This document shows, one piece after another, positions 1-5,407 of a stretch of DNA of 38,867 nt. Under the pieces are notes generated by a model. It searched no databases and had not been told where the DNA came from. It saw only the letters and a list, made by a program, of their open reading frames with translations. The number at the start of each line of letters is the position of its first letter. The first letter of the stretch is position 1. The position numbers were made by a program, and so were the translations under genes. Source of the stretch: Patescibacteria group bacterium (GTDB taxonomy: Bacteria; Patescibacteriota; 4484-211). The stretch is from assembly GCA_018824115.1 (NCBI GenBank), contig JAHJGY010000008.1, positions 1 to 38,867 on the forward strand. The letters are read 5' to 3'.

Positions 1-479
1 TCCTACCCTGTCTTTAAAGAGTATATTTGAAGATAGAGTAGGCAGTTTAAAGCGTTGCTTTAAACTGAGCTTATACAGTAAGGATATTGTAATAATTACG
101 AAACGCCTGTTCACCGACGCGGAATAAATTCCGCTACTACGGCAACTCTAATTAAGAGTGTCGAAGATTGCGGAAAGACGGTCGATAATGGTATACTTCG
201 GGACAGTTTCGAGAGAAGGAGATTAGATTCGGAAATTAGAGATCAAGAAATCGTTAATCTTGACCATTAATTCCTGATTCTTAAGGGCTAGTCTAAAGCG
301 TTGCTTTAGACTGGCCTGATATAGCAACGAATCAAGCACATTACCAAACAAAGGGTAAGCCCTTGTTGAGGGCGTAGTAAAAGGAATACTTACACGTGTT
401 TTGCGCAGGCGTCTGCGGCTTGCGTTTATTCTATTGGTAGGGCTTAGGCCCCATAACATAGACGGAAAAGGAGGTTCGT

Positions 480-1073
480 ATGACACGCTTAGGACAACCT
501 GATGAACAAAACTCTGTACTGGATTTTCTCTGGTGGCTACTGGCCGACAGGAGCCAAGCTCAACTGTTGATTTCCGACCTGCTTGACGGATACAACATAG
601 CCGGCCTCATCGGAACGCGAATCCCGGAAATCATGGGGCTCCTCACCGAGAAACTCGAGGCGGGCAATGCGGAGCCATTGATGGCCGCCTGCCGGCGGTT
701 CATTACCGTCCAGGATGGAAAACTATTCCTGCGGGACCTGATCAAAACCCTGTTGGAACAGAAACTTGCTGCGAGCCGCCAACAGCTCATCACGGCGGCT
801 ACGTCTGCCACCAAAGCAATTAGAGCACTCAAGCTCGACGCCGGCTACGAGGAGACGCACGCTAATCTCTCGATGCTAATCAGCGATATGGTCACCCTAC
901 GCCGGAATATAGACAACATCTCCGCCGCGCTAGAGCAGATTGGAGATGACACTTGGCAGACCTGCGCCAAATGCGGCGGCGAGATTTCCCTGACACGCTT
1001 GTGCATAAACCCAGTCACCACCGTCTGCAGCAACGTGAATTGCCGCAGACAGGTACCTGGGGGTGGCGCGTGA
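480..1073 (+). CDS. DksA/TraR-like C4 zinc-finger protein
   Basis: ORF with GGAGG upstream; C-terminal CAKCGG-x(n)-CINPVTTVCSNVNC four-Cys finger after a helical region, the DksA/TraR layout. Confidence 0.6.
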   Translation: MTRLGQPDEQNSVLDFLWWLLADRSQAQLLISDLLDGYNIAGLIGTRIPEIMGLLTEKLEAGNAEPLMAACRRFITVQDGKLFLRDLIKTLLEQKLAASRQQLITAATSATKAIRALKLDAGYEETHANLSMLISDMVTLRRNIDNISAALEQIGDDTWQTCAKCGGEISLTRLCINPVTTVCSNVNCRRQVPGGGA

Positions 1074-1699
1074 ATACTCTAGAACTCCAAGAGATTCTCG
1101 GTAAGATCGCCGTGGTCCGGCCCGTGGAGGGGGAAGGCGACCCGGTTGTCGTCAACTATCTCCTACCGCAAAACTTTTACACCACCTCTTGCTGGGCGAC
1201 CAAATCGGACCGGAAACCACACGGACCGTGTCCGAAGCTCTGTCCTCACAGCGGCCGCTGCGTCCCGCAGTTACGCCGCCGGATGGTGCAAGCCACACCA
1301 GGTGTGTGGGAAATTCGTCACATTAGCCCCACTGGGGAAAGTGGTCGTTCCAAGCAAGTTATCACGCCGACGACAGACCAACCTCGCAGTGCTTGGTGCA
1401 CGATTTGCCCGTTGACAACGTGCGATGTCAGGCCAGACATCTGTCCACCCGTTTGCCCGTACCGCGGGCAGTGTGTGCCATATACCGGCCGGTATATGGT
1501 TAGAAACGGCCGATTCATTCACGTGTTTGAGAGACAAATACACAACGGCCCGCGTGACTTTGAACCTGTTGTTGCTTGCGGCAGTTGGGTTCTCGTTTGC
1601 CCGCTCACACAGTGCAGAAAGCCACCGAGGGAATGCCCATCCATTTGCCCACATCTGCCAGCCAACAATGGACTGTGCAACGTAAGGGGGGACAAATGA
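1070..1699 (+). CDS. Cys-rich protein with three repeated CP-x-x-C-P-x(3-6)-C modules
   Basis: In-frame GTG at 1070 overlaps the upstream TGA (GTGA); repeats CPKLCPHSGRCVP, CPPVCPYRGQCVP, CPSICPHLPANNGLC. The listed ORF start at 953 is probably too far upstream. Confidence 0.6.
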   Translation: MNTLELQEILGKIAVVRPVEGEGDPVVVNYLLPQNFYTTSCWATKSDRKPHGPCPKLCPHSGRCVPQLRRRMVQATPGVWEIRHISPTGESGRSKQVITPTTDQPRSAWCTICPLTTCDVRPDICPPVCPYRGQCVPYTGRYMVRNGRFIHVFERQIHNGPRDFEPVVACGSWVLVCPLTQCRKPPRECPSICPHLPANNGLCNVRGDK

Positions 1700-2049
1700 G
1701 TAGCGGAAATACTAATCTCTCATACGGTGCTTTGAGGCTGCTGGCTACAGTGTGGTTTAACAATGGAATGTGGCAGATGATCCGCCGCACTGACACTGTT
1801 GACACACTAGAGCAAGCAAGATTTGTGAGAGTAACTCCAACTACGGGGAGCAAACTCTCTGTAAAGCTCACCCCGCAGGCCGCTGCAATTCTTGACAAGG
1901 ATGGAGGAGCGGGATTGCTGAAGGCGGTGGTTCTGCGCTACGCGACATTTCTTAGCGATGACGTCCCAGTTGATTGCATTGGGGACCCGCTAATCATTGA
2001 GTGCGCCAAGCAACTCAATCTTATAACTCTCAGTCCCGCCGCAAACTAA
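1696..2049 (+). CDS. hypothetical protein, third gene of an overlapping operon
   Basis: ATG at 1696 overlaps the upstream TGA (ATGA); in frame with listed ORF 1576..2049; preceded by AAGGGGGGAC. Confidence 0.6.
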   Translation: MSSGNTNLSYGALRLLATVWFNNGMWQMIRRTDTVDTLEQARFVRVTPTTGSKLSVKLTPQAAAILDKDGGAGLLKAVVLRYATFLSDDVPVDCIGDPLIIECAKQLNLITLSPAAN

Positions 2050-2136
2050 GCGGGGCTGATCATTACTGTCAACGGTTGGGTTTTTCTCTATATGGCAACG
2101 ATATATAGAGCCGTTCTCTATATAGGAAATATCGAT

Positions 2137-2172
2137 GTAAGATGGGCCCGAGACTACTCGGGCCCATCTTAC
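2137..2172. terminator. perfect 16-bp inverted repeat, loop ACTA, downstream of the 480-2049 operon
   Basis: GTAAGATGGGCCCGAG-ACTA-CTCGGGCCCATCTTAC; no T-tract follows, so terminator function is inferred. Confidence 0.55.
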
Positions 2173-2577
2173 CAACACCACTTCTCCCAACGTAACATCG
2201 GGAGTTTGAGTTTACTATAATTTGCCGCGCGGTAACAAAATGTGTACTATGAAACCCTTGGTTTCTTTTACACCGCACAATTACCGCGGCACTACTTATC
2301 GCGAAATGAGAAAACCTCGTAATCTAGCGACAATTCTATTATCGCGAAATAAATTTCGCTATTACATTACAAAATTAACAATAAATACCTAGCTAAGCGA
2401 TAGCTTTCTGTTTATAATTCATTGTAAATAGAAAATTGCCGCTTCGCGGTCGACACGTTTATTGGTATGGGGCACACAGGCCCCACAAGTAACGAAAGGA
2501 GGTAACTATCGCACATTTAACTTTCTAATAACCTGTCTCTCGGGTCCCGAGAGACCATATATCTAAGGGAGGTAAAC

Positions 2578-2982
2578 GTGGCTACACCATTTCCAGTTCC
2601 AGTACCACAGATCCTTGACATCCCATCTGAGAGCGCCCGGACACTGCTACTCAACTACTTGCGGCCGGTCGCGCTAAAAAAAGCGGAACAACTGCTCACA
2701 CTGCTCGATCGGCTCGGAGCTGAACACGCCGCCAATCTATCCTCACTAGCTAGCACAGATGACCGTCCAACCATCGCGGCGACCGCACACAATTCGGCAG
2801 CCATTGCGGTGATCCTGCGCAACGCTCTTGCTGCAACCCAGCAAGCACTCGCGAATATGGAAACCGACAGATGGGGGTTCTGCGTAAAGTGTGAGTCGTA
2901 TATCGAGCCTGAGCGGCTCCTTGCCGCTCTCACTGTCGACACATGCTGTACCTGCGCGGGCTGCAGGCCTCAGGTCGACTAG
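2578..2982 (+). CDS. DksA/TraR-like C4 zinc-finger protein
   Basis: GTG start after AAGGGAGGTAAAC; C-terminal WGFCVKCESYIEPERLLAALTVDTCCTCAGC finger; same layout as 480-1073. Confidence 0.65.
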   Translation: MATPFPVPVPQILDIPSESARTLLLNYLRPVALKKAEQLLTLLDRLGAEHAANLSSLASTDDRPTIAATAHNSAAIAVILRNALAATQQALANMETDRWGFCVKCESYIEPERLLAALTVDTCCTCAGCRPQVD

Positions 2983-3067
2983 GGGGCAAGCACCTCGAGG
3001 GTCTCCTAGTCAAGCTTGGTGGGGAAAGGTCCCATATACCCACCTAACCGAACAAGGGAGGACTATT

Positions 3068-3247
3068 ATGACTTGCGTCACCGAACCTTGCCCGAAAGAC
3101 GGTGGCCGTTGCGTTCACCGGCCGATGGCGGTAACTTCACGACCCTGCCAGGGGTGTCCCGGCTCCAACCGCGTTCGCCGCGGGTGGTACCTGGCGCTCC
3201 AGCGGCTAGTAAAGCTCCGCCTCGGCCACATGGCCGACGGTTACTAA
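3068..3247 (+). CDS. small (59 aa) Cys-rich protein
   Basis: ATG at 3068 after AAGGGAGG; MTCVTEPCPKDGGRCVHRPMAV resembles the repeat of the 1070-1699 product; internal start of listed ORF 2891..3247. Confidence 0.5.
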   Translation: MTCVTEPCPKDGGRCVHRPMAVTSRPCQGCPGSNRVRRGWYLALQRLVKLRLGHMADGY

Positions 3248-3251
3248 ATCT

Positions 3252-3480
3252 GGGCAGCAAAGCTGCCGCCCCTTCCGCGAGGAGGGGGCGGCACGCTCCC
3301 TCTCGCGGAACACAGCACCCTGCTTCGCTCTACGAGCTACCGCAGGGCAGGCCACCAGAAACAGACAGGCCTTCCCGGGGCAGGCTGGGCTACACGGCGT
3401 TCGAGCCGCCACGTTTCCTACTGGCCGGAGTTCTTTTATACAGGCACCTCCCTGCTGGTATAAGAGTGGGACCCTCCGGC
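3252..3480 (+). ncRNA. candidate structured RNA of unknown family
   Basis: Dense nested and alternative stems: 3253-3258/3262-3267, 3264-3272/3285-3293, 3273-3281/3102+200-3110+200 (i.e. 3302-3310), 3318-3323/3342-3347, 3424-3430/3474-3480 with 3433-3441/3458-3466; no convincing ORF. Confidence 0.4.
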
Positions 3481-3486
3481 ACAACT

Positions 3487-3552
3487 GACCTACCTCGCCC
3501 GTAATAAGTGCAGCCCAGTACGTGGGCGAGGTAGGTCCGCCGATTCGGCGGA
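3487..3552 (+). terminator. tandem hairpins (14-bp+ stem, then TCCGCCG-ATT-CGGCGGA) followed by a T-rich stretch
   Basis: GACCTACCTCGCCC...GGGCGAGGTAGGTC, then TCCGCCGATTCGGCGGA; CTTTTT shortly after. Confidence 0.5.
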
Positions 3553-3722
3553 TCAATCAGCCTTTTTAGCGACATTATTAACTACCAAGCGGTTACAAAA
3601 AGGATTTGATTCACGTCTAGTGTATCTTCTCCTCGCACCCTAACCGCTACTCACAACCTACGTAGAATTAACTGTCCCAAATTAAAAAGCAATTACAAAC
3701 CCAAAACGACACACCTATAGCA

Positions 3723-3751
3723 TTGCATCGATTGGTAATAAATGGTAGAAT
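3723..3751 (+). promoter_or_regulatory. sigma70-like promoter for the 3824 gene
   Basis: TTGCAT - 17 nt - TAGAAT. Confidence 0.45.
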
Positions 3752-3823
3752 ACTGCTCGCACTTTGATTTTTCTGTTGAACGGGAGAAAGCTCCCCCATA
3801 TCACTCTAGAGGAGGAAACAAAA

Positions 3824-4498
3824 ATGATTTTACCCCGATTTGAAGAATTGGCTGGGGCATTTAGGCCTCTGACCCTGAGCACAGGCGCGCTCTGCCTGTT
3901 CGCGGACATTGTCCGTAATGGAGGTGTCTTGGCGCTACGGCAGGTCGACGATGACACAATGCCTTTCATAAGCGAACTAGTCCAAGCCGGCTGCATTGTC
4001 TTCAGCAACGACCGCTGGGTATTAATCAGCACCTATTGGTCCCAAGCGGCCAAAGACTTTTTCCTTGAAATCGTTGGCCTGGGCGGCACCATGGATGTTC
4101 AGGACCTCGAGACAAGGCAAGTCCCCGGGCTGAGCGAGCTCCTCAAATACGACATCGTTACCTATGATGAGAGAATGGAGAGCTACGTGCTCACTGATTA
4201 TGGACGGGCCAGCGACATCCTCGACCAGATGATGGGGATTACACCAAACTTGGATCTAACGCTGCTCAAGGCCGCGATCGACGAATTGTGCCTGGACCTC
4301 AGCGAGAGGGCATTCGCGCTCCTCGCGATTATCTATGAGAGTGGGTCTATTCCTGACCTGGCTACTCGCCCAGAAGATCAATCTACTATCGTGACCGAAC
4401 TAGAGGCCAACGATCTCGTAATTCTGACCTCCGACTATCGCTGGGTGCTGGCGGCCGATTTAGCCGCAATCGTGTCAGACTTTGAGGAAAGCGCGTAA
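3824..4498 (+). CDS. hypothetical protein with apparent three-fold winged-helix-like repeats
   Basis: ATG after GAGGAGG; repeated pattern of helices followed by a two-strand wing (CIVFSNDRWVLI, DIVTYDERMESYVLT, DLVILTSDYRWVLA). Confidence 0.55.
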   Translation: MILPRFEELAGAFRPLTLSTGALCLFADIVRNGGVLALRQVDDDTMPFISELVQAGCIVFSNDRWVLISTYWSQAAKDFFLEIVGLGGTMDVQDLETRQVPGLSELLKYDIVTYDERMESYVLTDYGRASDILDQMMGITPNLDLTLLKAAIDELCLDLSERAFALLAIIYESGSIPDLATRPEDQSTIVTELEANDLVILTSDYRWVLAADLAAIVSDFEESA

Positions 4499-4531: not shown

Positions 4532-4571
4532 AAACAGGCAGGGGTGGGTTGAACTTAACCCGCCCCTGTTT
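4532..4571. terminator. bidirectional hairpin between convergent genes
   Basis: AAACAGGcagGGGTGGGTT-gaactt-AACCCGCCCCTGTTT. Confidence 0.5.
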
Positions 4572-5407
4572 CACTTTGCAGTCTGCAGAACATTCTTCAA
4601 CAAATAGGCCACCGTTAGCGGACCTACACCACCAGGAACCGGGGTTATCCAACTAGCCTTATCTTTTACTTCTTGGAAACAAACATCCCCAGTAATTTTA
4701 TTCTTAATCCAATTAAATCCAACATCAATCACGACCGCACCTTCTTTTACATGACGATCCGAAATTAGACCCGGCACACCCGCGGCGGCAACCAAAATAT
4801 CCGCTTGCTTGGTTTCCGCGGCAAGATCTTTTGTTTTGGAATGACACACGGTAACCGTTGCATTTTCTAGCAATAATAATTGGGCTACTGGTTTACCAAC
4901 CATTTGACTACGACCAACAACCACTGCTTTTTTCCCTTCGAGGCTCACCTTTGTTTCACGTATTAATCGCATGACTGCTTGGGCAGTCGCGGGAAGAAAA
5001 ATTTCCGAAGATAATAAAGCAGTACTTATTTGGTTCAACCCATCAACATCTTTATGGGAACTAATTAACCGCGTAAAGCGTAAAATCGGGGTAGGGGAGT
5101 CTTCACCTGCAAGAACCGGGAGGGGGAGTTGAAGAATCAAGCCATCCACATCAACCTGCTGATTTAACCTGCAAAGCTCTTCCTTAACCTTAATCGCATT
5201 AACACCCGCTGGCAATCTAACTACTTGAAAACCGATTCCAACTTCCCGGCAGGCCCCCCTTTTGTAGTCCACATACCTTTGCGAGGCCTGATCTTCTCCA
5301 ACCAATAATACTGCTAATTTTGGAGGTCGATCTAGTTTTGCAACTTCTTGCTTGATTTCTTGGGTAATCTCCGCAGCTATTTTTTTCCCGTTAAGAACAA
5401 CTGCCAT
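4571..5407 (-). CDS. folD: bifunctional methylenetetrahydrofolate dehydrogenase/cyclohydrolase
   Basis: GRSxMVGKPVAQLL, ITPVPGGVGPLTVAYL, DVDGLILQLPLP motifs. Confidence 0.95.
   Translation of the reverse strand: MAVVLNGKKIAAEITQEIKQEVAKLDRPPKLAVLLVGEDQASQRYVDYKRGACREVGIGFQVVRLPAGVNAIKVKEELCRLNQQVDVDGLILQLPLPVLAGEDSPTPILRFTRLISSHKDVDGLNQISTALLSSEIFLPATAQAVMRLIRETKVSLEGKKAVVVGRSQMVGKPVAQLLLLENATVTVCHSKTKDLAAETKQADILVAAAGVPGLISDRHVKEGAVVIDVGFNWIKNKITGDVCFQEVKDKASWITPVPGGVGPLTVAYLLKNVLQTAK

Follow-up and report, generated by a model that had tools for sequence, protein, structure and literature searches.

We examined a 38,867-nucleotide stretch of DNA (the window), which is contig C56 of G000, the genome of a Patescibacteria group bacterium (GCA_018824115.1; 1.01 Mb in 86 contigs, with an estimated contamination of 1%). 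At positions 480 to 4498 of the window, six plus-strand open reading frames (ORFs), P1 to P6, form a GC-rich cassette. Our data suggest, with moderate confidence, that this cassette is lineage-specific and probably acquired, and that it consists of self-contained units, similar to phage morons, that occupy a variable junction beyond folD.

The cassette and its position beyond folD

An earlier note, made from the sequence alone, had described six ORFs with codons GC-richer than the backbone, and our analysis bears out both statements: GC content at third codon positions (GC3) is 0.52-0.72 within the cassette versus about 0.34-0.50 in nearly all other genes of the window (Table 1). A strong GGAGG-type Shine-Dalgarno sequence (SD) had been attributed to each ORF; this holds for P1, P4, P5, and P6, while the sequences ahead of P2 and P3 are G-rich. 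Since neighboring genes overlap by 4 bp at each junction (GTGA at P1/P2 and ATGA at P2/P3), P1, P2, and P3 probably form a single coupled operon. P4, P5, and P6 lie downstream of it, each with its own SD, and the cassette is bounded on the right by the convergent folD (4571-5407).

The block manB-trmD-ruvBAC-ppa-folD is conserved in genome G001. Beyond folD, G001 carries a REP-like palindrome (repetitive extragenic palindrome) and a nucleotidyltransferase-like gene, G002 carries other genes, and G000 carries the cassette, which is absent at the corresponding site in both G001 and G002. The synteny across relatives that had been proposed as a check of the cassette thus gave three different gene sets in three genera. 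Furthermore, the cassette proteins were not found in the sister genera.

Table 1. Positions of the cassette genes, non-coding elements, and palindrome copies discussed in the text.
Feature	Position	Strand	GC3	SD	Remarks
REP-B-like palindrome GTTTAAAGCGTTGCTTTAAAC	48..67	+			second copy at 294, with compensatory change
P1, divergent DksA-like, 197 aa	480..1073	+	0.66	AAAAGGAGG (GGAGG)	profile and Foldseek matches
P2, Cys-rich ORFan, 209 aa	1070..1699	+	0.60	GGGGGTGG, G-rich	repeated CxxCPLTxC...CPxxCP motifs
P3, ORFan, 117 aa	1696..2049	+	0.52	GGGGGG	weakly similar to P6 repeat 1
16-bp perfect inverted repeat	2137..2172	+			downstream of P1-P3; putative terminator or palindrome
REP-A-like palindrome GCGAAATAAATTTCGCTATTAC	2344..2367	+			further copy at 119-141
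Upstream SD-like AAGGAGGTAACTATCG	2496..2511	+			in the leader of P4, about 80 nt 5' of its start codon
P4, divergent DksA/YteA-like, 134 aa	2578..2982	+	0.59	GGAGG	C4 finger CxxC-x17-CxxC; NCBIfam profiles
P5, small Cys-rich ORF, 59 aa	3068..3247	+	0.72	GGGAGG
GC-rich folded non-coding stretch	3248..3560				nested hairpins; overlapping ORFs in other frames
P6, ORFan, 224 aa	3824..4498	+	0.64	GGAGG	three internal repeats (repeat statistics), possibly winged-helix
Seventh class gene in the window, 436 aa	36169..37479	-	0.69	GAGGAGG
Copies of GCGNAATAAATTNCGCTAYTAC	window 119-141, 2344-2367; L033, L039, L041, L049; other genera L058, L079
Copies of GTYTAAAGCGTTGCTTTARAC (second family)	window 48, 294; L023 8551; L035 8747; L039 1164				compensatory changes in the stem

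A genome-wide class of GC-rich, SD-led genes

The cassette had been read as a co-inherited module, a view that our data do not support: some 20 unrelated genes in other parts of G000 have this composition too. Class-wide counts were made in 553 kb of the 1009 kb of G000, where about 22 genes, most of them ORFans, are GC-rich and SD-led and stand singly or in small clusters amid housekeeping genes. The foreign-like composition and SD pattern recognized earlier is real, as the property of a genome-wide class that is not confined to 480-4498. With GC3 thresholds (0.53 and median + 0.10) that were set after viewing the distribution, 22 high-GC3 genes have an SD and 10 do not, versus 53 and 359, respectively, of the other genes (p=1e-11). 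GGAGG is carried by 21 of 25 class genes and by 34 of 288 others. Since the simple ORF script that called the genes preferred an SD-bearing start for every gene alike, these SD rates are comparative and not absolute. We found the coupling of GC3 to SD in the related genera G002 (p=0.002) and G004 (p=2e-8) and, marginally, in G006 (2 genes, p=0.013); neither G001 nor any of four distant genomes of the phylum shows it. Few proteins of the class match Pfam; in G000, only a Band-7 protein and a SIR2-like protein do so, the latter borderline. We found no prior report of such a gene class in the literature searched, which mostly did not cover subscription papers.

In genes with no SD, a -10 box (TANRAT) most often starts 12 nt ahead of the start codon, in 23 genes versus 10 or fewer for any other distance. 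Leaderless mRNAs would be expected to have the box at this position, and the peak is present in most sampled genomes. The anti-SD at the 3' end of the 16S rRNA is intact (L011 6734).

Leaders of class genes are also enriched in a second AGGAGGT. The interval from -170 to -30 contains this sequence in 7 of 23 class genes versus 4 of 422 others (p=1e-7); in these seven it lies 76-126 nt ahead of the start codon, often adjoining a predicted hairpin. Long folded leaders with such an upstream SD were seen at L014, L015, L030, L031, L032, and L184 as well as at 2496 in the window. An extended leader consensus, AAGGAGGTNNCTANCG, was rejected since it occurred 15 times versus 34 times in the reversed control, and the upstream AGGAGGT enrichment alone was retained. 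Inspection by eye showed -10-like boxes, leaders, and strong 3' hairpins at many class units, which are candidate promoters and terminators.

Origin of the units

Horizontal transfer would be the likeliest origin of these genes, which would have been acquired as self-contained transcription units similar to morons. Such units would bring their own leader, strong SD, and downstream hairpin into a backbone that mostly lacks SDs and often looks leaderless. Because they carry an SD and, judging by sequence, a candidate promoter and terminator of their own, and because the host anti-SD is intact, they would be expressible wherever they landed, with translation presumably proceeding through the 16S rRNA of the host. 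Similar to phage morons, the genes are single or in small clusters between conserved genes, have deviant GC content, and possess a leader, an SD, and a 3' hairpin of their own. Unlike phage morons, they are scattered over a cellular chromosome and not a prophage, they number about 20 or more units per genome, and their promoters are putative. The genome as a whole resembles leaderless-dominated bacterial genomes, in that most genes have no SD and a -10 box lies at leaderless distance, and differs from them in that SDs are concentrated in a single accessory class set apart by its composition.

Several observations weigh against acquisition. Neither a donor nor a mobility gene adjoining the cassette was found, no flanking sequence common to class genes was found, and a sigma-70 scan of the cassette gave 2 promoters versus 3.4 in shuffles. 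Since the contig begins at base 1, the left-hand boundary of the cassette lies out of view, and so does any empty site. Lastly, the GC3 of the class is offset according to host, at about 0.41-0.52 in G004 (backbone 0.30) and 0.53-0.76 in G000 (backbone 0.40), which could indicate a host-specific gene class under selection.

This host dependence would suit vertically inherited genes that rely on SD-dependent translation and owe their GC-rich codons to another selection regime and not to recent import. The coupling in several genera of the order and the recurrence of the two-SD leader layout point the same way, as does the upstream DNA of class genes, which lies nearer (0.47) to backbone upstream DNA (0.42) than to class coding DNA (0.56). 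However, the cassette proteins were not found in sister genera and three genera differ beyond folD, and we consider an evolution of the class within the host unlikely.

The earlier note had suggested that the cassette came from a plasmid or phage, and searches for such a source were empty: P1 had no match in 50,697 phage records, P2 had none in 72,556 plasmids, and P1, P2, and P6 had none in IMG/VR by peptide pattern, a result with which an unsampled element would be compatible. TraR homologs from plasmids and phages reprogram host RNA polymerase (PMC9239242), and two DksA-like proteins near each other, together with the coupled P1-P2-P3 operon, might suggest a dedicated regulatory module that was inherited as a block from one such element and reprograms the polymerase of its host. 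Besides the empty searches of phages, plasmids, and viral contigs, the cassette contains no phage or conjugation gene, scattered unrelated genes share its composition and SDs, and both DksA-like proteins are missing the DxxDxA motif; an origin of this kind is quite improbable. It is very unlikely that GC-rich pieces of another organism were joined to the metagenome-assembled genome by assembly or binning, because, although the cassette stands at a contig start and class genes lie somewhat closer to contig ends (median 2.6 versus 3.9 kb, p=0.016), they are not significantly enriched within 1-3 kb of those ends, many of them lie inside contigs and are flanked left and right by housekeeping genes (L030, L031, L021), the same coupling occurs in related genomes, and estimated contamination is low.

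Returning to the acquisition of moron-like units, we speculate that they might belong to an order-level second expression class, in which GC-rich units with structured two-SD leaders were spread by a mobility mechanism through a largely leaderless genome, and in which initiation mode marks accessory genes and could permit their separate control, for example by their own DksA-like proteins; we regard this extension as doubtful. If the reading of the class as accessory units is confirmed, accessory genes of a small-genome lineage could be recognized by how their translation is initiated. It would also show how foreign genes remain expressible where most genes have no SD, and would provide a list of perhaps 40 gene units per genome (an extrapolated number) for study of mobility and function. 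DksA-like proteins with no DxxDxA tip would, in turn, extend to this group the TraR theme of mobile genes that act on host RNA polymerase.

P1 and P4 are divergent DksA-superfamily members

The DksA/TraR-like C4 fingers that had been noticed in P1 and P4 agree with profile searches, at scores below the curated cut-offs. P1 matches NCBIfam TIGR02420 with an E-value of 5e-10 and 39.7 bits (cut-off 115.5 bits) and is under the Pfam cut-off as well; P4 matches NF033459 with 7e-7 and 29.6 bits (cut-off 105 bits) and TIGR02890 with 8e-7, likewise under its cut-off. The two proteins are similar to each other (E 8e-5), and outside the cassette the genome holds no PF01258 finger over the cut-off. P1 comprises a unique helical N-terminus, a coiled-coil hairpin, and a C4 finger (CxxC-x17-Cx4C). 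Its single-sequence model has a low mean confidence (predicted local distance difference test, pLDDT, of 61) that reaches about 80 in the hairpin, where helices 80-118 and 123-153 precede the finger. Foldseek searches with this model gave E. coli DksA (1tjl, probability 1.00) and P. aeruginosa DksA2 (4ijj, 0.99) as top matches, with E-values above 0.1.

The DxxDxA motif at the coil tip is essential for DksA/TraR activity (PMC9239242). When P1 and P4 are aligned with DksA-like proteins from their phylum, the finger is seen to be conserved, including the RL-containing form seen across these proteins, and DxxDxA is absent from both: P1 has KLDAGYEE and P4 has STDDRPT at the tip. Since the finger is conserved and the tip is not, P1 and P4 are divergent members of the DksA superfamily and not DksA or TraR. 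They share with DksA, TraR, and YteA, a superfamily that binds in the secondary channel of RNA polymerase, the C4 zinc finger and, in the P1 model, the coiled-coil hairpin ahead of it; they differ in the missing tip, in falling under all curated cut-offs, in the additional N-terminal domain of approximately 80 residues in P1, which has no known relatives, and in the presence of two divergent copies within one cluster. Their sequences suggest that they are likely transcription modulators acting on RNA polymerase. Given the missing tip, they may bind and yet lack the activity of DksA, or they may compete with other factors that bind the channel.

Across 380 genomes of the phylum, P1 gave weak, mostly zinc-finger-level matches in 24 other genomes. 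Because P1 matches only at this level and P2 and P6 have no relatives in any collection searched, co-conservation of the cassette was not demonstrable.

The remaining cassette proteins

P6, perhaps P3, and the cysteine-rich P2 and P5 might be nucleic-acid- or metal-binding partners. P2 has no match in Pfam, NCBIfam, or PHROGs (best E 0.04), was not found in seven other genomes of the taxonomic class, and had no match by peptide pattern among 85,462 species genomes. A CP-rich cysteine motif had been described as common to P2 and P5, and we found their similarity to be marginal (E 0.08, z 2.7). A GC-rich ORF elsewhere in G000 (L191 4717-5559, minus strand, contig C47) encodes a cysteine-rich product (CNQCPGSICP...CGRNCGARC) that is possibly of the same kind.

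P6 does contain internal repeats, three in all; those scored against repeat 1 give z 7.4 and 8.4 (0 of 500 shuffles). Their description as wing-like is unproven because the AlphaFold model, made with no alignment, has a pLDDT of 39.6 and no usable fold. A PDB sequence search gave no match for P6, and no relatives were found in the 380 phylum genomes. P3 resembles P6 repeat 1 with z 3.3 (3 of 500 shuffles; BLASTP E 0.1).

Structured non-coding DNA and dispersed palindromes

The gaps of the cassette fold more strongly than their shuffles, with z-scores of -6.8 (1-479), -6.5 (2050-2577), and -6.0 (3248-3823), so the structured non-coding DNA of the earlier note is present. It is not special to the cassette, since other intergenic regions of G000 fold equally strongly (z -6 to -8, down to -7.9). 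Part of the signal stems from two dispersed families of REP-like palindromes. The REP-A-like family, GCGNAATAAATTNCGCTAYTAC, has six copies in G000 and two in other genera, and in G001 (L180) a copy lies directly 3' of folD. Pieces related to the inverted repeat at 2137-2172 also occur elsewhere in the genome.

An Rfam scan of the cassette, including 3248-3560, found no family at cut-off; the sole lead, SAM_alpha, was sub-threshold (E 0.48) and was rejected. Inspection of the cassette by eye only recognized no integron-like attC sites. The genome contains four Y1_Tnp transposase genes, three of them over cut-off, that resemble RAYTs (REP-associated tyrosine transposases). Two dispersed intergenic palindrome families together with Y1_Tnp genes recall REP and BIME (bacterial interspersed mosaic element) systems with RAYTs. 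In contrast to those systems, no palindrome was found near the transposase genes within the 3-kb loci examined, and no direct link to class genes was seen.

Further loci of the class

The seventh class gene of the window is a lone GC-rich gene amid genes of 41-43% GC. Its product matched no family in a Pfam search and contains a HELLH motif, which by eye appears metallopeptidase-like. The largest class group seen (L030 2507-12079, contig C21 of G000) encodes six to eight mostly membrane-like ORFan proteins, and its genes alternate with those of an ABC-2 transporter block that has backbone composition. In G004, a 5-kb contig (C6; L065 144-4452) carries three SD-led genes, including one for a 765-aa ATPase; this contig is possibly a mobile element and might point to where the class came from.

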